Shown here: piece by piece, positions 3,515 to 12,513 of the stretch
Layout: each line of letters opens with the position of its first letter
Position numbering within the stretch: the first letter of the stretch is position 1
Assembly (NCBI GenBank): GCA_016930875.1
Contig: JAFGFW010000115.1
Coordinates: 1 to 42,684, forward strand
DNA: 42,684 nt
Source: Deltaproteobacteria bacterium
Lineage (GTDB): Bacteria > Desulfobacterota > Desulfobacteria > Desulfobacterales > C00003060
Reading direction: 5' to 3'
The notes under the pieces: generated by a model
What the model saw: the letters and a program-made list of their open reading frames with translations, nothing else
Told to the model about the DNA's origin: nothing
The model's database searches: none
Program-made: the position numbers and the translations under genes

Positions 3515-3542
3515 TTGACAACTTGCCGGTAAATGTTATAAG
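3515..3542 (+). promoter_or_regulatory. sigma-70-type promoter of the GAF-ANTAR gene
   Basis: A consensus -35 hexamer TTGACA (3515-3520) is separated by 16 bases from TATAAG (3537-3542). The predicted start site lies about 50 bases upstream of the ATG at 3601, which has AAGG as ribosome-binding site. Confidence 0.65.
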
Positions 3543-3600: not shown

Positions 3601-4296
3601 ATGAAGGGAGACCAATCTTTTGAAAAACATATAGAAGCCCTAACGAAGATCAGCAAGGCGATCACGTCTGACCGGTATATTGAGGACATCCTCCGGCTTG
3701 TGGTCACCGTGACGGCCGAGACTATGCGCTCAAAGATATGCGCCCTCTGGCTCTTGGATAACAGCGATAACACCCTCAAACTGCGTGCCACCCAGAGTAT
3801 AAGCGAAGATTATCTGACGGAGCGTTCTCTGAAAATGGGGGAAGGGATTGTGGGGCAGGTTGCTCGTTCTCGCCAGCCCAGGTCGGTTCTAAATGTGCTG
3901 GAAGAGTCCGACTACAAGGAAAAGGAGTTGGCCAGAAAAGAGGGACTGGTGTCAATGCTCAGTGTGCCCATGGTGGTAAAGGACAGGGTTATCGGCGTAA
4001 TCAACTGCTACACATCATATACCCATGAGTTTACGGAAACTGAAAGAAATGTCTTGATCACCGTGGCCAATGAGGCGGCAGTTGCCATAGAGAATACCGA
4101 GTTGATAGTAAAAACCAAAGTGATTCAGGAGGAGCTGGAAACCAGAAAGCTGATCGAACGTGCCAAAGACATATTAATGACGCGCCGGGGTCTGAGCGGA
4201 CCGGACGCCTACCGTTGGATTCAAAAACGGAGCATGGATACCCGCAAATCGATGAAAGAGATCTGCGAAGCGATTGTGTTGACAGAAGAGATATGA
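3601..4296 (+). CDS. GAF-ANTAR transcription antiterminator
   Basis: The 231-residue protein has an N-terminal GAF sensor domain (about residues 15-165; MGEGIVGQVARSRQP and SMLSVPMVVKDRVIGVIN are typical GAF blocks). After a short coiled linker comes an ANTAR RNA-binding domain at about 170-228, with the typical RAKDILMTRRGLS and the C-terminal SMKEICEAIV helix. ANTAR proteins bind paired hairpins in nascent leaders and stop terminator formation, often for nitrogen-related genes (NasR, AmiR and EutV are known examples). The spacer downstream of this gene contains just such a hairpin pair and a terminator before the glutamate-synthase-like gene, so that operon is the likely target. The GAF ligand is unknown. 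There is no receiver domain, so it senses directly rather than through a kinase. Confidence 0.92.
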   Translation: MKGDQSFEKHIEALTKISKAITSDRYIEDILRLVVTVTAETMRSKICALWLLDNSDNTLKLRATQSISEDYLTERSLKMGEGIVGQVARSRQPRSVLNVLEESDYKEKELARKEGLVSMLSVPMVVKDRVIGVINCYTSYTHEFTETERNVLITVANEAAVAIENTELIVKTKVIQEELETRKLIERAKDILMTRRGLSGPDAYRWIQKRSMDTRKSMKEICEAIVLTEEI

Positions 4297-4349
4297 GATT
4301 ACAAAACCCTTGACATGAGAGAGGTTTTCGCATAAAAATACACATTAGC

Positions 4350-4394
4350 TTGAGAGATACAACGGCGTATTTCTCAAACGACGACAGCGACGTC
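4350..4394 (+). promoter_or_regulatory. candidate ANTAR target: two hairpins with A1/G4 loops
   Basis: Hairpin P1 has an 11-bp stem (4350-4360 with 4367-4377, one G-U pair) closing the hexaloop AACGGC. Hairpin P2 has a 4-bp stem GACG/CGTC (4380-4383 with 4391-4394) closing ACAGCG plus one extra A. Both loops have A at position 1 and G at position 4, the published ANTAR recognition feature. P2 shares bases 4392-4394 with the 5' arm of the following terminator, so P2 and the terminator are mutually exclusive, as in known ANTAR leaders. Confidence 0.65.
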
Positions 4395-4428
4395 CAACCG
4401 TCCCATGGGGAGAGTTGGACTTTTTTTT
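4392..4428 (+). terminator. intrinsic terminator in the leader of the GltB-like operon
   Basis: The 7-bp stem GTCCAAC/GTTGGAC (4392-4398 with 4414-4420), with an inner TCCC/GGGA pairing, is followed directly by eight T residues. It lies between the GAF-ANTAR gene and the glutamate-synthase-like gene. Its 5' arm overlaps the P2 hairpin, which fits conditional termination. Confidence 0.85.
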
Positions 4429-4470: not shown

Positions 4471-4541
4471 GTCATTGCGAGGAGCGTAGCGACGAAGCAA
4501 TCCTTGTAGATTAAGCAGGAGATTGCTTTGCTCGCAATGAC
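4471..4541. repeat. palindromic MITE-like element
   Basis: Perfect 11-bp terminal inverted repeats, GTCATTGCGAG (4471-4481) and CTCGCAATGAC (4531-4541), enclose inner sequence that is also partly complementary (GAAGCAATC with GATTGCTTT). This type of element is dispersed in many anaerobe genomes. Here it sits between the leader terminator and the GltB-like start codon, lengthening the leader. Confidence 0.75.
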
Positions 4542-4619: not shown

Positions 4620-6200
4620 ATGTCATTTAGCAAACCGAATCGAAGTGCAGCAACCCTAACTACCACCAGATTAGACCCGGCTCCTGGTTCCGGAATCTGT
4701 GTGACCTGTGTGGATGGATGCGAAGGGCCGTGTGAAATCGGGCGCTCGGCGCTCAAGGGAAGAGAGGTCCTTTATCCTATCCCCTTTGGAAAAATCACAG
4801 CCGGCTCTGAAAAGGATTATCCTGCAGATTTTTCCCATTTCAATATTCAGGGCACGGCAGTCGGCGCCGTAGGGGTCGAGGCTGATCCGGACAAGGCCAC
4901 GTTTCCAGCTGTGGATACCACTACTGCCCTTGGCGCTGACGGGAGCATCAAGCTAAATTTTCCGGTGTTCACAGGGGCCGTTGGATCTACTGACATTGCC
5001 CGGATCAACTGGACAGAGGCTGCTGTTGGCGCGGCCATATCCGGTGTAATCGTGGTAGCCGGAGAAAACATCTGCGGTATGGACCCACAGGCCGAATTCA
5101 GTAATGGGAAAATATCGAAATCCCCTGAAATGGAACGTAGGATCAAGGCGTTCAAGGATTGGTATGACGGCACAGGAGGCATTATCATCCAGGCTAACGT
5201 GGAAGACACTAAGCTGGGCGTACCCGAATATGTAATTGAAAAGCTGGGTATGGAAATCTTTGAACTGAAATGGGGCCAGGGCGCAAAGGACATTGGCGGC
5301 GAGGTCAAACTCTCCTCCATAAAGCGGGCCCTTCAACTCAAGGAGCGTGGCTACATAGTGCTTCCGGATCCCACGAATCCCGCTGTCCAGGAGGCCTTTA
5401 AGGCTGGTGGTATTTCGGAATTTGAGCGTCATTCCCGCCTCGGCATGGTTGATGAAGATGCCTTCCATAAAGAGGTAGAACGTCTCCGGAGCGTGGGCGC
5501 CAAATACGTCACGTTGAAAACCGGGGCCTATCGGCCGAGTGATCTCGCCCGGGCCATCAAGTATTCTTCTGATGCGAAGATCGATCTTCTAACCATAGAT
5601 GGGGCCGGTGGAGGCACGGGGATGAGCCCGTGGCGTATGATGAACGAATGGGGCATCCCCACGGTCCAACTGGAGTGTTTGGCCTATCAGATGTGTGAAA
5701 AGCTTAAAGCAAAAGGGGCCTATATTCCGCCCATCGCTATTGCCGGCGGGCTTTCTCTGGAAGACCATATATTCAAGGCGATTGCCCTGGGAGCCCCTCA
5801 CGTAAAGGCGATTTGCCTTGGAAGGGCCATGTTGACGGCAGCCATGGTGGGAAAGACGCATGGCCGATTGATGGCAGAAAAGATGGAAGACGAAGGCGAA
5901 GATCCAAGCGAAGGATACGTCAGGCTCTTTGCTGTAGGCGCCGAGCTCAAAAAACGATTCGGCAGTGATTTTGCTAAACTCCCTCCAGGGGCCATTGGCA
6001 TGTATTCTTACATCGACAGAATGAAACAAGGGCTGCAGCAATTCATGGCAGGGGCCAGGAAGTTTGCCCTTCAGTACATTGATCGCAATGACCTTGTAGC
6101 CCTTACGAAAGAAGCGGCAGAAGTATCCGGCATCGACTATGTGATGGAAAGTGATGCCGTAGAGGTAGAAAAGATCTTGGGATACAACGGAGGGTATTAA
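4620..6200 (+). CDS. FMN-binding glutamate synthase-like protein without glutaminase domain
   Basis: The 526-residue protein corresponds to the FMN/glutamate-synthase central domain of GltB. Recognisable blocks are GGEVKLSS (near 228), LTIDGAGGGTGMSPWRMM (near 325-342) and IAIAGGLSLEDHIFKAIALG (near 375). The N-terminus carries a four-Cys motif, C27-x2-C30-x3-C34-x3-C38, which could hold an iron-sulfur cluster. The usual GltB 3Fe-4S Cys motif and the amidotransferase domain are absent. It may make glutamate from ammonia or from a partner-supplied nitrogen donor, or act on another substrate; the family is poorly characterised. AAAGGAGGAA precedes the ATG. The next gene starts one base after the stop codon, so the two are translationally linked. 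Expression is likely controlled by the upstream ANTAR leader. Confidence 0.85.
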   Translation: MSFSKPNRSAATLTTTRLDPAPGSGICVTCVDGCEGPCEIGRSALKGREVLYPIPFGKITAGSEKDYPADFSHFNIQGTAVGAVGVEADPDKATFPAVDTTTALGADGSIKLNFPVFTGAVGSTDIARINWTEAAVGAAISGVIVVAGENICGMDPQAEFSNGKISKSPEMERRIKAFKDWYDGTGGIIIQANVEDTKLGVPEYVIEKLGMEIFELKWGQGAKDIGGEVKLSSIKRALQLKERGYIVLPDPTNPAVQEAFKAGGISEFERHSRLGMVDEDAFHKEVERLRSVGAKYVTLKTGAYRPSDLARAIKYSSDAKIDLLTIDGAGGGTGMSPWRMMNEWGIPTVQLECLAYQMCEKLKAKGAYIPPIAIAGGLSLEDHIFKAIALGAPHVKAICLGRAMLTAAMVGKTHGRLMAEKMEDEGEDPSEGYVRLFAVGAELKKRFGSDFAKLPPGAIGMYSYIDRMKQGLQQFMAGARKFALQYIDRNDLVALTKEAAEVSGIDYVMESDAVEVEKILGYNGGY

Positions 6201-6201
6201 T

Positions 6202-6411
6202 ATGTTAAATATCATCTGCAAACACAACTGCAAGTCCTGTTTTGCCGAGCCCGTCTGCGCTGTGCATGCGATCATAGATCAGCAAGGCTCCATATATGTA
6301 GATACCGACAAGTGTATTGGCTGCGGAAGCTGCCGTACGGCATGTGTGGTCTTTGGCTATGACCAGGCCCTGAAAGAAAAGACCGTGGAGTGGCTTAAGG
6401 GAGCAGCCTAG
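6202..6411 (+). CDS. small 4Fe-4S ferredoxin-like protein
   Basis: The 69-residue protein has two cysteine groups. The first is an N-terminal set, C-x3-C-x2-C-x5-C (residues 6-19), and the second is a classical DKCIGCGSCRTACVVFG block (about 36-52). It probably carries two 4Fe-4S clusters, although the first set is not canonical in spacing. Its start lies one base after the stop of the glutamate-synthase-like gene, so it is the likely dedicated electron donor or acceptor of that enzyme. The 273 bases to the AOR gene are filled by an inverted repeat. Confidence 0.85.
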   Translation: MLNIICKHNCKSCFAEPVCAVHAIIDQQGSIYVDTDKCIGCGSCRTACVVFGYDQALKEKTVEWLKGAA

Positions 6412-6443
6412 GAAGCTCCGCCTCAAAACGACGAGGCTTCGCG

Positions 6444-6595
6444 ATACTGGATGCTGGATACTCGATTCTGGATGGATAAGAAAATGGCATTCCTTGCCCA
6501 CCTTGGCGCTTCCTGCTGCACGCGGGCTATCAAGCTCGCGATCCACAGGTCTGGGCCAGGGTTTCATCCAGTATCCAGAGACCAGCATACAGTAT
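6444..6595. repeat. inverted dispersed repeat (CTGGATGCTGGATA family)
   Basis: The segment 6444-6473 is largely the reverse complement of 6565-6595; both are built from ATACTGGATGCTGG-like units. The same unit recurs at 8501-8513, 8924-8936 and 8940-8953, always in spacers of this operon. Nothing coding is seen in the spacer. Confidence 0.7.
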
Positions 6596-6684
6596 CTGCT
6601 TATCTCTTGCACAAGAGTGTGTTACAAAAACCTGACTCCTTTTTGAAGTCCTTGGCTCATAAGGACCACTAGTGAGGTTATTTT

Positions 6685-8499
6685 ATGTATGGTTGTACCG
6701 GTCGTTGCCTTCGGGTGAATCTGTCCAAAGGTAAACACTCGGTTGAAGAAATAGACCCTGAACTGCTAGGCAAGTTCGTGGGCGGCCGGGGCCTCGGTGT
6801 GAAGGTATTGTCGGACGAGGTGGACCCCAAAACTGACCCCCTTGGGCCGGAAAACAAGTTGATCTTTGTTTCCGGTCCGCTGGTGGGCACAGGCGCCGTT
6901 ACAGGGGCTTCCTGTAATGCTGTAACAAAGAGCGCGCTATCCGGCGCCATTGCCTGCGCCAAGATGCGAGGTCACTTTGGGGCAGAACTCAAGTTCGCCG
7001 GGTTGGACATGATCATCATTGAAGGGAAGGCTGAATCCCCGGTGATCCTGTCCATCCTGGACAATAAAATCAACATCCGGCCAGCCCTTGAATCGTGGGG
7101 CCGCACTACATCGGAAACAGAAGTAGTGTTCAAAAAGAGTCTGGAGGACAAGTGGGCGGCCAGGGAAACATATCTGGTATCTATAGGTCCGGCTGGTGAG
7201 AAATCAGTCCCATTGGCGAACATCGTAAATGACGGCTTTCTGTCCGTTGGCGGGGCCGGAATTGGCGCGGTCATGGGTTCCAAAAACCTTAAAGCCATTG
7301 CTGTTAAAGGAAGCCATTCCCTGTCAGTAGCAGACGGTGATCGGTTTGTGCGGGTAGTCACCAACCTGATCAATAAGTTAAATAGCGCCCCCTTTACCTC
7401 ACAATCCATGCGGGCCTGGGGATCCGCCTTTTTTACAGGCATCTGTTATCAAAAGGGGGTACTCCCTTACAGAAATTTTCAGGCGGCCGCTTTTCCGGAA
7501 TCAAAGGATATCGGGACCGAGGCCCTGTCCAACGCCTTTGCCTTGAGAAGCAGGGGGTGTTTTGCCTGCCCCATCGCCTGCATCAAGAAGACCGACGTGA
7601 GTAATCCCCTTTTTAGAGCTAAAGGCATGGCGCCCACTTATCTGGCTATCGGAGCCCTTGGGCTGAACTGTGGTGTCACCGACCTGACCACCATTGGATT
7701 GGCCAATATGATCTGCGCCGAAATGGGCCTGGATCCCATAGCAGCAGGAGGGACCGTGGCTACAGCCATGGAATTGGTGGAAAAAGGGTTTACTGACAGA
7801 GACGCCCTTAAGCTTGAATTAAGGTTTGGACAAGGAGAAGATCTCCTTCAGGCCTTGACGCTTATGGCCACAAAAAAGGGGCATGCCAAGAGAATAGGAA
7901 AAGGGGGAGATGCCCTGGCCAAGGAATATGGCCAGTCGAAACGCTTTATGGGCGTCAAGGGAATGCCCGTGGCCCCTTTTGATCCCAGGTGTATTCAGGG
8001 CATGGGTCTCCATTTTGCCACATGCAATTACGGACCCCATCATCTTTACGCATACACCTTTTTTGAGGAGGTGTTGAATGTGCACGAGGGATTGGATCCC
8101 TGGAGTACGGAGGGCAAACCTGAACTGGTAAAACAATACCAGGATATGACTGCTATCATGGACTCCCTTGGTCTTTGCAACTGGACACTGATGGGGCTCA
8201 AGTTTAATAATTTCGTCCCCATGATCAACAGTTGCTTAGGCACTGAGTACCGTGCGGAAGATCTCTTGAGGATTGGAGACCGGATCTGGAACCAGGAAAG
8301 GCTGTTTAATATCTGGGCTGGATTTGACCATACTCATGACACACTCCCCGGCAGATTCTTTGATGAACCGATCCAGGATGGTCCGGCTCAGGGGCAAGTA
8401 AGCAAAGTGGACGAAATGCTTCCCGCGTACTATGAGCTTCGGGGTTGGAGCGAGAGGGGTCAACCGCTGACTGAAACCTTAAAGGCTTTGGGACTCTAA
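6685..8499 (+). CDS. aor: tungsten-type aldehyde:ferredoxin oxidoreductase
   Basis: At 604 residues this is a full-length AOR-family tungstopterin enzyme. The N-terminal domain shows the family signature GGRGLGVKVL (about 33-42) and GPLVGTGAVTGA. The 4Fe-4S ligands are visible as C292-x2-C295-x3-C299 plus C498; the 206-residue distance from first to last Cys equals that in the Pyrococcus enzyme as I recall it. Such enzymes oxidise aldehydes, or reduce acids, using ferredoxin and bis-pterin tungsten; related BamB enzymes reduce benzoyl-CoA. No substrate can be read from sequence alone. With the ferredoxin at 9029 and HdrA at 9460 it recalls the BamB-BamC-BamE/F layout and other AOR-Hdr complexes. 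GTGAGG about 10 bases upstream supports the ATG start. Confidence 0.93.
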   Translation: MYGCTGRCLRVNLSKGKHSVEEIDPELLGKFVGGRGLGVKVLSDEVDPKTDPLGPENKLIFVSGPLVGTGAVTGASCNAVTKSALSGAIACAKMRGHFGAELKFAGLDMIIIEGKAESPVILSILDNKINIRPALESWGRTTSETEVVFKKSLEDKWAARETYLVSIGPAGEKSVPLANIVNDGFLSVGGAGIGAVMGSKNLKAIAVKGSHSLSVADGDRFVRVVTNLINKLNSAPFTSQSMRAWGSAFFTGICYQKGVLPYRNFQAAAFPESKDIGTEALSNAFALRSRGCFACPIACIKKTDVSNPLFRAKGMAPTYLAIGALGLNCGVTDLTTIGLANMICAEMGLDPIAAGGTVATAMELVEKGFTDRDALKLELRFGQGEDLLQALTLMATKKGHAKRIGKGGDALAKEYGQSKRFMGVKGMPVAPFDPRCIQGMGLHFATCNYGPHHLYAYTFFEEVLNVHEGLDPWSTEGKPELVKQYQDMTAIMDSLGLCNWTLMGLKFNNFVPMINSCLGTEYRAEDLLRIGDRIWNQERLFNIWAGFDHTHDTLPGRFFDEPIQDGPAQGQVSKVDEMLPAYYELRGWSERGQPLTETLKALGL

Positions 8500-8500
8500 T

Positions 8501-8936
8501 CTGGATGCTGGATTGGATAGGACAGCGATAGAATGAGTTATAAGAATTTGAAAATTTGGCAATTAGCACGGGAGTTGGTGATCGACGTCCATAAAATGAC
8601 GCTCACGAAATTACCCAAGTTTGAGATGTTCGAAGAAGGATCTCAGATTCGCCGGTCAATAAAATCCGTGAAATCAACGATTGTCGAAGGCTGTGGCAGG
8701 CGAAGATACAAGCAGGAATTCATACGATTTCTAACCTATGCAATTGCCTCAAATGATGAAACTATCGATCACTTGGAAACGCTTTATGAAACTGAATCAC
8801 TAACGGACAAAGCAATGCACGAAGCAATTCATGATAAGCTGGAAGTTCTTGGCAAAAAACTGAATCTGTTCATTCAATCCGTGGAAAGGGGTCATAACAG
8901 TCAGGAATAGAGTGAAAAGCAACATCCAGCATCCAG
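8501..8936. mobile_element. four-helix-bundle gene cassette bounded by 13-bp inverted repeats
   Basis: CTGGATGCTGGAT at 8501-8513, directly after the AOR stop codon, is the exact reverse complement of ATCCAGCATCCAG at 8924-8936. Together they bracket the four-helix-bundle gene. A further copy of the unit lies at 8940-8953. The arrangement suggests an inserted cassette that split the AOR gene from its ferredoxin partner. No transposase is present. Confidence 0.5.
8533..8910 (+). CDS. four-helix bundle protein (S23/IVP family)
   Basis: The 125-residue protein matches the family first described from intervening sequences in 23S rRNA. It has the N-terminal block [19 protein letters not shown], the central [20 protein letters not shown] and the following helix with [20 protein letters not shown]. 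It is all-helical and probably forms oligomers; its biochemical role is unknown. Related Avd proteins assist diversity-generating retroelements, but no reverse transcriptase is present here. Its position inside a metabolic operon and the exact 13-bp inverted repeats around it suggest it arrived as a selfish insert and is not part of the redox pathway. Confidence 0.9.
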
Positions 8937-9028: not shown

Positions 9029-9403
9029 ATGCCAAGAATAAAAATCGACCATAACAAATGCACTGGTTGCAGGCATTGTGAGATAGCCTGCTCTCTGAAT
9101 CATGTGACCGGAGTAGCGAATCCCCGAAGGGCCCGAATTCGTGTTTTTCGTGAAGGCAATGTTTTTTTCCCCGTAATTGCCGGTCCCTTTGTGGATGCGG
9201 CCTGCACCTCAAAGCTTAACATAAAAGTAGGCGATCAAGTCTACGACATGTGTTTGCTCTGCCGGGCATCCTGTCCTCAGAAACCCTTTTTCATCGAAGC
9301 AGACACAGGCTTTCCCCTGAAGTGTGACTTCTGCGGCATCCCCCCCAACCCCTCCTGCGTGCGCTGGTGCAATTCAGGAGCCTTAGAGCTGATAGATGAC
9401 TGA
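9029..9403 (+). CDS. 4Fe-4S ferredoxin subunit for AOR (HycB/BamC-like)
   Basis: The 124-residue protein holds four cysteine groups: CTGCRHCEIAC (about 11-21), CTSK (59), CLLCRASCPQKP (about 75-86) and CDFCGIPPNPSCVRWC (about 99-114). These would support several 4Fe-4S clusters in the DmsB/HycB fold. AOR-type enzymes of bacteria often have such a small electron-transfer subunit, as AorA or BamC do. It lies between AOR and HdrA and most likely wires the tungsten enzyme to the flavoprotein. The cassette at 8501-8936 separates it from AOR, and a hairpin repeat separates it from HdrA. Confidence 0.88.
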   Translation: MPRIKIDHNKCTGCRHCEIACSLNHVTGVANPRRARIRVFREGNVFFPVIAGPFVDAACTSKLNIKVGDQVYDMCLLCRASCPQKPFFIEADTGFPLKCDFCGIPPNPSCVRWCNSGALELIDD

Positions 9404-9459: not shown

Positions 9460-12400
9460 ATGAATTACATCAACAAAAATCATAATATCGTTGGCGCAGT
9501 GATGGTCGTTGGCGGCGGGATTGCAGGCATTCAGGCCTCCCTGGATTTGGCTGATCTGGGCTTCTACGTCTATCTCGTGGAAAAAAAGGCTTCCATTGGC
9601 GGAGCCATGGCGCAACTTGACAAGACGTTTCCAACCAATGAATGTGCCATCTGAATCGTGTCTCCGAAATTGGTGGAGGCCGGTCGGTCTCCAAACATTG
9701 AGATCATCACAAAGGCAGAACTCTCATCCCTCCAGGGAAAAGCAGGCAACTTCACTGCCACGGTACATCGCCTGCCCCGCTATGTGGATCAGGATCGATG
9801 CACGGCCTGCAGGACGTGTGCCGATTATTGTCCGGTTCCCATCACAGATGACTATAACCAAGGGCTTTGCCAAACCAAGGCCGTACACATCGATTACCAG
9901 CAAGCCATACCAGCGGCCTTTCATGTGGATCCCAAGGCCTGTCTCTTTCTAACAAATCAGGAATGCAAACAGTGTGAGAGAGTCTGCCAGGCCAAGGCCA
10001 TCGATTTCAGACAGCAGGCCCAGGACATAGAGATCAATGTGGGCGGAGTCATACTCGCTGTCGGGTTTGGTCGCACAAGTAACGACGTGTTGTCAAGATA
10101 TGGTTATGGGATCTTTCCAAACATAGTCACGAGCACCGAGTTAGAACGCATCCTTTCCGCCTCTGGCCCTTTCCAGGGCCGCCTCATACGTCCTTCGGAC
10201 GACAAGAAGCCCAGAAAGATCGCCTGGCTCCAGTGCGTGGGCTCACGGGACATCAACTTTTCTAATAATGGTTACTGCTCAAGCGTTTGCTGCATGTACG
10301 CAATCAAACAGGCCCTTGTTGCAAAGGAGCATTCCAAAAATGGCCTGGAGACAGCCATCTTTTTCATGGATATGCGCACCTGTGGCAAGGAGTTCGAGCA
10401 GTATTACAACCATGCCAGGGGAAAAGGCGTGCGTTTTGTGAGGTGTCGGGTACACAGCATTGACCCGGTGCCTGGTTCGGATAACTTGCAGATTCGCTAC
10501 GTAACCGAAGATGGCAAAGTGCGACAGGAAGCGTTCGACATGGTGGCGCTTTCTGTCGGCCTTGAGCCTTCGGCTGGTGTGGCAGAACTGGCAGAAAGGC
10601 TCGGGATCGAGCTTAATCATTACAAATTTGCCAAGACCAGCAGCTTTGCTCCTGTAAGTACATCCATACCCGGGATCTATGCCTGCGGCGCCTTCCAGGG
10701 CCCCAAAGATATCCCCTATTCCGTAATGGAAGCCTCGGCAGCCGCAGGTGCCGCAGCATCCGTATTGGCGCCCGTGCGCAACACACTGGTGAAGGAGAAG
10801 ATTTTCCCCGAGGAAAGAGACGTCTCAGAGAAACCGCCAAGAATTGGAGTTTTTGTCTGCAACTGCGGTGTAAATATAGCTGGCGTGGTCAATGTCCCTG
10901 AAGTAGCCCAATACGCCAAAACAGTTGAGAATGTGGTCTATGTGCAGGAAAACCTCTTTTCCTGTTCCCAGGATGCCCTGAAGCAATTGGTTGAGGTAAT
11001 CAAGGAAGAAAATCTCAACCGGGTTGTGGTGGCCGCCTGCTCGCCTCGCACCCATGAGCCTCTCTTCCAGGAGACTTTGCGTAATAGCGGTCTGAACAAA
11101 TACCTCTACGAGCAGGCCAATATCCGCGACCAGTGCTCCTGGGTACATTCCGGAGATCCTGGTGCTGCCACTCAAAAGGCCAAGGACCTGGTACGGATGG
11201 CAGTTTCCCGGGCCTCACTCATCGAGCCTTTATCCATGACCTCGGCGCCGGTTACACCGGCTGCTTTGGTCGTAGGTGGCGGTGTGGCCGGAATGGTGTG
11301 TACCCTTGACCTGGCCCAGCAGGGATTCAAGGTACACATTGTCGAGGAGAAGGATCGCCTCGGAGGCCACGCCCTGAAGTTAAAGAACACCTGGAAGGGC
11401 GAAAGCATACCGGAGTACGTGAGCAAACTGGTTGATGACGTAACCGGTCACGAGAACGTTGAGGTCTATCTCAATACCAAGGTCAAGGAGGCATCCGGTT
11501 CTATTGGCAACTTCCAAACCACCATCGCCCTGAATGGGACAGGGGACGCCAAGAAGATCGAGCACGGGGTAGTGGTGCTTGCAACGGGCGCCCATTCCAT
11601 CAAACCGGATGAATACCTCTATGGCAAGAACGAGCGGGTCTTGCGTTGGCACGATCTTGATAAGGCATGGGACAGCGATCTTGTAAAAAACGCAGCCAGT
11701 GCGGTCTTCATCCAGTGTGTGGGTTCCAGGGAACCTGAACGTCCTCACTGCAGCAAGATCTGCTGCACCTTTTCGATTCAAAAGGCCTTGGAGCTTAAGG
11801 AACGGAACCCGGATATGGATGTCTACATCCTTTACAGGGACATTAGAACCTACGGGGAGCGTGAGGATCTTTACAGAAAAGCCCGCCGGCGGGGTGTGAT
11901 TTTTATTCGCTACGAGCTTCATAACAAGCCCGTTGTCAAAGAAACCGAGGGAGGCGGCCTGGAGATCACTGTGACTGATCACGTGCTGGGCCGGCCAATC
12001 ACCATCAAGCCGGACTTTGTCACCCTGGCCAGTGCCATCTACACCCGCGGCCTGGAGGAACTGGCCCAGCTCTTCAAGGTGCCTCTGAGTCAGGACAATT
12101 TCCTGCTGGAAGTCCACATGAAGCTTAGGCCCGTAGACTTTGCAACTGATGGCGTCTTTGTCTGCGGCCTGGCGCATTATCCCAAACCGATTGAGGAGAG
12201 CATTGCCCAGGCACAGGCGGCAGCGGCCCGGGCAGGGGCAGTTCTCTGTCAGGATTCTATCATCAGCGAAAGTGTCATCGCCCGTGTAAACGAAGAGGCA
12301 TGTCGGGGATGCGGCCTCTGTGTGGCGTTATGTCCCTTTAAAGCCTTAAGGATCGTCGAGGCACAAGATGGACGAAAGGTAGAGGTTATCGATGTGGCTT

Positions 12401-12513
12401 GCAAAGGTTGCGGAGTGTGCGCAGCCACCTGCTATCGACACGCCATGCGTATCAACGCTTTCACTGATGAGCAAATGGCTTCACAGGTCAGAGCTTTCTT
12501 GACGACTTCATAA
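9460..12513 (+). CDS. hdrA: selenocysteine-containing HdrA-HdrA fusion flavoprotein (UGA at 9652-9654)
   Basis: Read through one in-frame UGA as selenocysteine, the gene encodes 1017 residues. Residues 12-60 form an FAD-binding fold ([19 protein letters not shown]). The conserved HdrA segment follows as [16 protein letters not shown], with Sec65 replacing the second Cys of the usual C-x2-C. Ferredoxin ligands come next (C114-x2-C117-x2-C120-x3-C124 and CKQCERVC). From about residue 462 a second, complete HdrA begins: an N-terminal [13 protein letters not shown] domain, a second FAD site near 600 (VVGGGVAGM), and two C-terminal 4Fe-4S motifs from about 948 ([11 protein letters not shown] and [11 protein letters not shown]). 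HdrA proteins bifurcate or confurcate electrons at FAD. The SECIS-like hairpin after the UGA and the intact frame on both sides argue against a pseudogene. No hdrB or hdrC is adjacent; AOR and its ferredoxin are the likely partners. Confidence 0.9.
9674..9693 (+). promoter_or_regulatory. bacterial SECIS-like hairpin for selenocysteine insertion
   Basis: Starting 20 nt after the UGA, an 8-bp stem (TGGAGGCC, 9674-9681, with GGTCTCCA, 9686-9693, one G-U pair) closes a GGTC tetraloop at 9682-9685. The GGUC apex matches the SelB-binding loop of the E. coli fdhF SECIS as I recall it. The loop begins 27 nt beyond the UGA, within the range reported for bacterial SECIS elements. Confidence 0.8.

Follow-up and report, generated by a model that had tools for sequence, protein, structure and literature searches.

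A conserved ANTAR-type antitermination leader predicted between a GAF-ANTAR gene and a GltB-like gene in an uncultured Desulfobacterales bacterium

We analyzed a stretch of 42,684 nt –here called the window– from a Deltaproteobacteria bacterium (Desulfobacterota; Desulfobacterales; C00003060), an uncultured member of a sulfate-reducer group. It covers positions 1-42,684 of the forward strand of contig JAFGFW010000115.1 (assembly GCA_016930875.1). On the + strand, the locus reads in this order: GAF-ANTAR gene, promoter-like sequence, a first hairpin (P1), a linker, a second hairpin (P2) overlapping a terminator, a run of eight T, and a GltB-like gene. The GAF-ANTAR gene (3601-4296) encodes a 231-aa protein and has a putative promoter of its own, TTGACA-16-TATAAG (3515-3542), which we read directly off the sequence. 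The GltB-like gene (4620-6200) is the first gene predicted to be controlled and encodes 526 aa with an FMN-type glutamate synthase domain (Pfam Glu_synthase, 9e-14). Directly 3′ of it, both the sequence and NCBIfam ferredoxin matches point to a 4Fe-4S ferredoxin-like protein of 69 aa (6202-6411).

Further downstream on the same strand lie three possible operon members: an aldehyde:ferredoxin oxidoreductase (AOR, 6685-8499; Pfam AFOR_N and AFOR_C), an Fe-S protein (9029-9403; weak Fer4 matches), and an HdrA-like protein (9658-12513; NCBIfam HdrA2 1.3e-248, under that family's own cut-off). The Fe-S protein is kept in three related loci (L036, L038, and L086). Between the AOR and the Fe-S protein, we observed an ORF of the four-helix-bundle / 23S rRNA intervening-sequence family (8533-8910); it looks inserted, since no ORF is listed at that place in these three loci.

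For the leader, the original prediction described an 11-bp hairpin with loop AACGGC 3′ of the GAF-ANTAR gene, and a second stem overlapped by the 5′ arm of a terminator. Both elements were found. P1 (4350-4377), TTGAGAGATAC[AACGGC]GTATTTCTCAA, starts 53 nt past the ANTAR stop codon and has 11 pairs, including one G-U; its hexanucleotide loop (4361-4366) carries A at position 1 and G at position 4 (A1 and G4). A linker of 5 nt (ACGAC, 4378-4382) separates it from P2 (4383-4394), the predicted antiterminator, with 3 bp and the loop AGCGAC, again with A1 and G4. The linker is as short as those in the eut leaders of Enterococcus faecalis, where it spans 5-12 nt (PMC3369931). The intrinsic terminator (4392-4428, -16.5 kcal/mol) has a 7-bp outer stem, GTCCAAC (4392-4398) with GTTGGAC (4414-4420), followed by T8 (4421-4428). 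The GTC at 4392-4394 is common to the 3′ arm of P2 and the 5′ arm of the terminator, and this sharing is also seen in other aligned leaders. The ribosome-binding site lies about 180 nt further downstream.

The leader fold beat 200 of 200 dinucleotide shuffles (z -3.4). A mechanical scan for two A1/G4 hairpins and a terminator overlapping the second arm gave a single site on both strands of the window; 4.27 Mb of sequence simulated by a Markov model with the same dinucleotide content yielded no site. The Rfam covariance models gave no match in the window at gathering score; ANTAR leaders are not defined by an Rfam match. Upstream of P1, our script predicted a leader promoter, TTGACA-17-TAAAAA (4310-4338), which the consensus scan also listed, with an 18-nt spacer.

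For P2, the original prediction was right about a second A1/G4 hairpin, which is present in all 11 aligned leaders of the window's genus, but not about its register: it had read the loop as ACAGCG(A), with one extra base. The consensus is GAC[ANNGRN]GTC, with A1, G4, and all three pairs in 11/11 leaders, and the window has GAC (4383-4385), loop AGCGAC (4386-4391), and GTC (4392-4394). P2 is a canonical hexaloop and thus the supposed deviation vanishes; the linker becomes 5 nt instead of 2 nt. The heptaloop register, GACG[ACAGCGA]CGTC, also pairs in the window sequence, with an energy of -3.2 vs. -1.8 kcal/mol for the hexaloop when no protein is considered. However, only 5/11 leaders have A1/G4 in this register and only 6/11 all four pairs, and we rejected it as the recognized form despite the slight energetic preference. 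Since the energy rules favor it by 1.4 kcal/mol, it may exist as a competing fold. Within 4378-4394, the 4-bp heptaloop competes with P2 in 6 of the 11 congeneric leaders; it could be a decoy state, or arise by chance from the ACGACGAC repeat.

Both-sided, compensatory changes were found at 8 of the 11 pairs of P1 in the 11 leaders of the genus, and at 5 of 7 counted pairs in 23 leaders of a wider group; sliding the pairing as a control lowered it to about 23-54% paired. The P2 pairs, together with A1 and G4 of this hairpin, are invariant in both sets of leaders, and because these pairs never vary, P2 neither strengthens nor weakens the covariation case. In the wider group the linker is more variable, and the loop-to-loop distance ranges from 11 to 35 nt.

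To avoid circularity, we also searched with the loop letters left free, requiring a pair of AC...GT-closed hairpins with a terminator after them, in 102 non-redundant loci (921 kb). This loop-blind search retrieved 45 sites, and none in shuffled sequences. Within 700 nt after the ANTAR gene lay 35 of the 45, and 29 of these 35 presented A1 and G4 in both loops. A promoter-like TTGACA (CTGACA in one case), with a spacer of 16-18 nt, was found by script upstream of 29 of the 35 leaders. Some leaders deviate, such as L011 and L019, which lack G4 in P1. Homologous leaders without the hairpins or without A1/G4 had been named beforehand as the refuting observation; relatives keep both.

Five loci (L020, L030, L051, L054, and L060) carry a pair of consecutive hairpin/terminator units, either within a single leader or ahead of the following gene, resembling multi-site ANTAR regulons. 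In Omnitrophota, only three clear sites were found in 296 kb, with other closing pairs (none in shuffles). The Omnitrophota leaders of L071, L072, and L103, located 31-35 nt past the ANTAR stop, have AGC or GGC before the P2 loop and are possibly a variant of the site.

We then compared the occurrence of site and regulator across the window's genome and its relatives, 60 genomes in total, counting a site as present at a covariance-model E<0.01. The window's genome has one ANTAR protein (PF03861 once), encoded next to the leader, and one strong site (E 8e-10). Further sites in this genome had E 0.04 and weaker, with none near a known target gene, and were taken as chance. The covariance-model search proposed with the original prediction showed that the site follows the GAF-ANTAR gene: it was present in 36 of 37 genomes with the gene and in 1 of 23 without it (Fisher 4e-14). 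The Fisher tests used here make no correction for shared ancestry, several of the genomes compared are incomplete, and some 15 of the genomes with a site count as positive by construction, since the model was trained on their leaders. Because the GltB-like gene alone could explain the co-occurrence, we repeated the count among genomes carrying that gene, and the site was present in 32/32 with ANTAR vs. 1/10 without (Fisher 2e-8). The exception (G052), with a site and no GAF-ANTAR gene, is a genome that is 65% complete. Judging from these genome comparisons, the leader is conserved in relatives and inherited together with the GAF-ANTAR protein.

Outside the training set, eight sites showed no ANTAR gene beside them on the contig and still lie 5′ of a GltB-like gene (L121, L127, L128, L134, L135, L140, L143, and L144). 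For the linked sites of L122 and L146, the next gene is glutamate dehydrogenase-like. In one genome (G017, L162 302-420), the ANTAR gene is cut to its first 28 codons, with a T-rich stretch following immediately and then the GltB-like gene. Leader and terminator stem are missing along with most of the regulator; this could be a joint loss of regulator and leader, or a misassembly. In L166, from a genome lacking an ANTAR gene, a terminator and a P2-like stretch in degenerate form (GATAAGGCGTC) precede the start of the GltB-like gene, possibly the relic of a lost switch.

The GAF part of the regulator (Pfam GAF_2, 7.9e-21) precedes an ANTAR domain (PF03861, 1.3e-20; 73 bits vs. a cut-off of 27.3). 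In the AlphaFold model (pLDDT 86), a long helix (146-196) connects the GAF domain to an ANTAR end of three helices. The nearest likeness of the GAF part is to PtsP and NifA-type proteins, whose GAF domains belong to nitrogen-status signaling. This likeness is a lead for ligand identity, and the ligand may possibly be a nitrogen-status metabolite.

We aligned the protein to EutV (6wsh), using the RNA contacts published for EutV (PMC8934654). Six contact residues of EutV are kept: R142, K143, K149, Y164, M172, and R175 correspond to R182, K183, K189, Y204, M212, and R215. K147 is conservatively replaced by R, and G, Q, D, and S take the place of E160, R168, N173, and R177, respectively. None of R182, K183, K189, M212, and R215 varies among 33 homologs, and position 204 holds either Y or F. 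By this alignment, the RNA-contact residues of EutV are mostly kept in the GAF-ANTAR protein.

The leader shares its main traits with known systems. Like the eut leaders of E. faecalis read by EutV (PMC3369931, PMC8934654), it has two hexaloop hairpins with A1 and G4 in both, a short linker, and a P2 arm shared with an intrinsic terminator, and the key RNA-contact residues of the regulator are alike, apart from the four differing ones listed above. However, EutV is a REC-ANTAR protein with a phosphorylated receiver and targets ethanolamine utilization, whereas here a GAF sensor is in the same protein and the target is a GltB-like gene. NasR, which reads the nasF leader of Klebsiella oxytoca (PMC7496416), is closer in being a one-component ANTAR protein with the sensor in the same chain and in its nitrogen theme; it differs in its NIT (nitrate) sensor and in the operon. 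Desulfotomaculum reducens is a Firmicute. In this species, ANTAR dual-hairpin sites were predicted upstream of glutamate synthase genes (PMC3369931), a likeness at the level of glutamate synthase genes, as the GltB types may differ. Our locus differs in belonging to Desulfobacterales, in having the GAF-ANTAR gene beside the site, and, in this genome, in the AOR/HdrA cluster downstream.

An ANTAR antitermination leader is thus a known type, while the GAF-linked regulator has no characterized example in the literature examined. A study in 2012 reported that ANTARs linked to GAF or PAS domains were still uncharacterized (PMC3369931), and a 2020 paper counts two sensor-bearing one-component ANTARs as characterized, NasR (NIT) and PAL (PAS-LOV) (PMC7496416). 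Our literature search found neither a paper describing a GltB/AOR/HdrA operon nor one reporting GAF-ANTAR antitermination in this group.

We consider it very probable that the site is an ANTAR-type antitermination leader, acting in cis on the GltB-like operon and read by the GAF-ANTAR protein encoded upstream; all the available comparative tests support this central claim of the original prediction. RNA polymerase would start at the promoter at 4310-4338 and transcribe P1, P2, and the terminator in that order. Without active protein, the terminator –far stabler than P2– would form, and transcription would stop at 4421-4428. With the GAF domain in its signaling state, an ANTAR dimer would bind the A1/G4 hexaloops and keep P2 closed, withholding the GTC at 4392-4394 from the terminator. 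Read-through would then lead to transcription of the GltB-like gene, the ferredoxin, and perhaps the AOR, Fe-S protein, and HdrA. We infer both the binding of the protein to the leader and the direction of control, in which the protein would turn the operon on; the latter rests on the ANTAR model in the literature and on P2 and terminator being unable to pair at the same time. Control by a GAF ligand is suggested by the domain architecture. Counting against this mechanism, P2 has only 3 bp and the bare RNA slightly prefers the 4-bp heptaloop.

For the target, the original prediction of a switch over the GltB-like gene is well supported, as the unlinked sites still precede that gene. In Desulfobacterota, it is the commonest neighbor downstream of GAF-ANTAR family genes: the clustered set has 46 GltB-like ORFs downstream, of which 39 are the first gene past the ANTAR gene. 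Omnitrophota neighbors, named by reading the sequences, include ammonium transporter, PII, glutamine synthetase, glutamate dehydrogenase, and NAD synthase. These neighbors fit earlier reports connecting ANTAR sites to nitrogen genes (PMC3369931, PMC3369936). Predicted control is well supported for the GltB-like gene together with the adjoining small ferredoxin gene, and the AOR and HdrA genes may be co-transcribed with the GltB-like gene.

The strongest alternative, plausible although we lean against it, concerns the extent of the operon alone and leaves the mechanism unaffected: the switch would cover only the GltB-like gene and the ferredoxin, and the AOR, Fe-S protein, and HdrA would be a separate transcription unit. 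A gap of 273 nt separates the ferredoxin from the AOR, and in most relatives no AOR adjoins the GltB-like gene that comes after the ANTAR gene. However, the GltB-like/AOR gene order is identical in L036, L038, and L086, our scan listed no + strand terminator from 6200 to 6685, and neither a second leader nor a terminator was found in the window between the ferredoxin and the AOR.

Two other alternatives concern the mechanism itself. The dual hairpin could bind the ANTAR protein and act mainly post-transcriptionally, on translation or RNA stability. This may hold for many actinobacterial ANTAR RNAs, and few actinobacterial target RNAs sit upstream of a terminator overlapping the second stem (PMC8164766). 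At this locus we find it very improbable, given the P2 arm shared with a strong terminator, also in other aligned leaders, and the distance to the ribosome-binding site. Least credible of all is a mere end-of-gene terminator of the GAF-ANTAR gene with coincidental P1 and loops, which would fit the closeness of P1 to the stop codon and the good terminator ending the site, but not the promoter-like sequence just upstream of P1 in most leaders, the covariation of P1, or the conserved loops, and which is already contradicted by the sites that remain with the GltB-like gene where the ANTAR gene sits elsewhere.

For the antitermination leader, the value of the locus is that one regulator, one strong site, and one target are found together and kept across an order. 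It offers a compact test case for GAF control of ANTAR output and for finding the GAF ligand, and adds uncultured anaerobes to the known connection between ANTAR control and nitrogen metabolism. As a speculation that we hold to be rather unlikely as a whole, one-component antiterminators of the GAF-ANTAR type could form a family, present in Desulfobacterota and, judging by protein sequence, in Omnitrophota, whose PtsP/NifA-like GAF domain senses nitrogen status directly (2-oxoglutarate or glutamine, for example) and which, in this genus, ties an AOR/HdrA electron-transfer cluster to nitrogen assimilation.

Finally, between the terminator and the GltB-like start we observed an imperfect inverted repeat (4472-4541; GTCATTGCGAGGAGCGTAGCGACGAAGCAATC ... 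GATTGCTTTGCTCGCAATGAC). It is absent from L003 and other leaders of the genus, and a sequence close to its left arm, with one mismatch, occurs once more in the genome.
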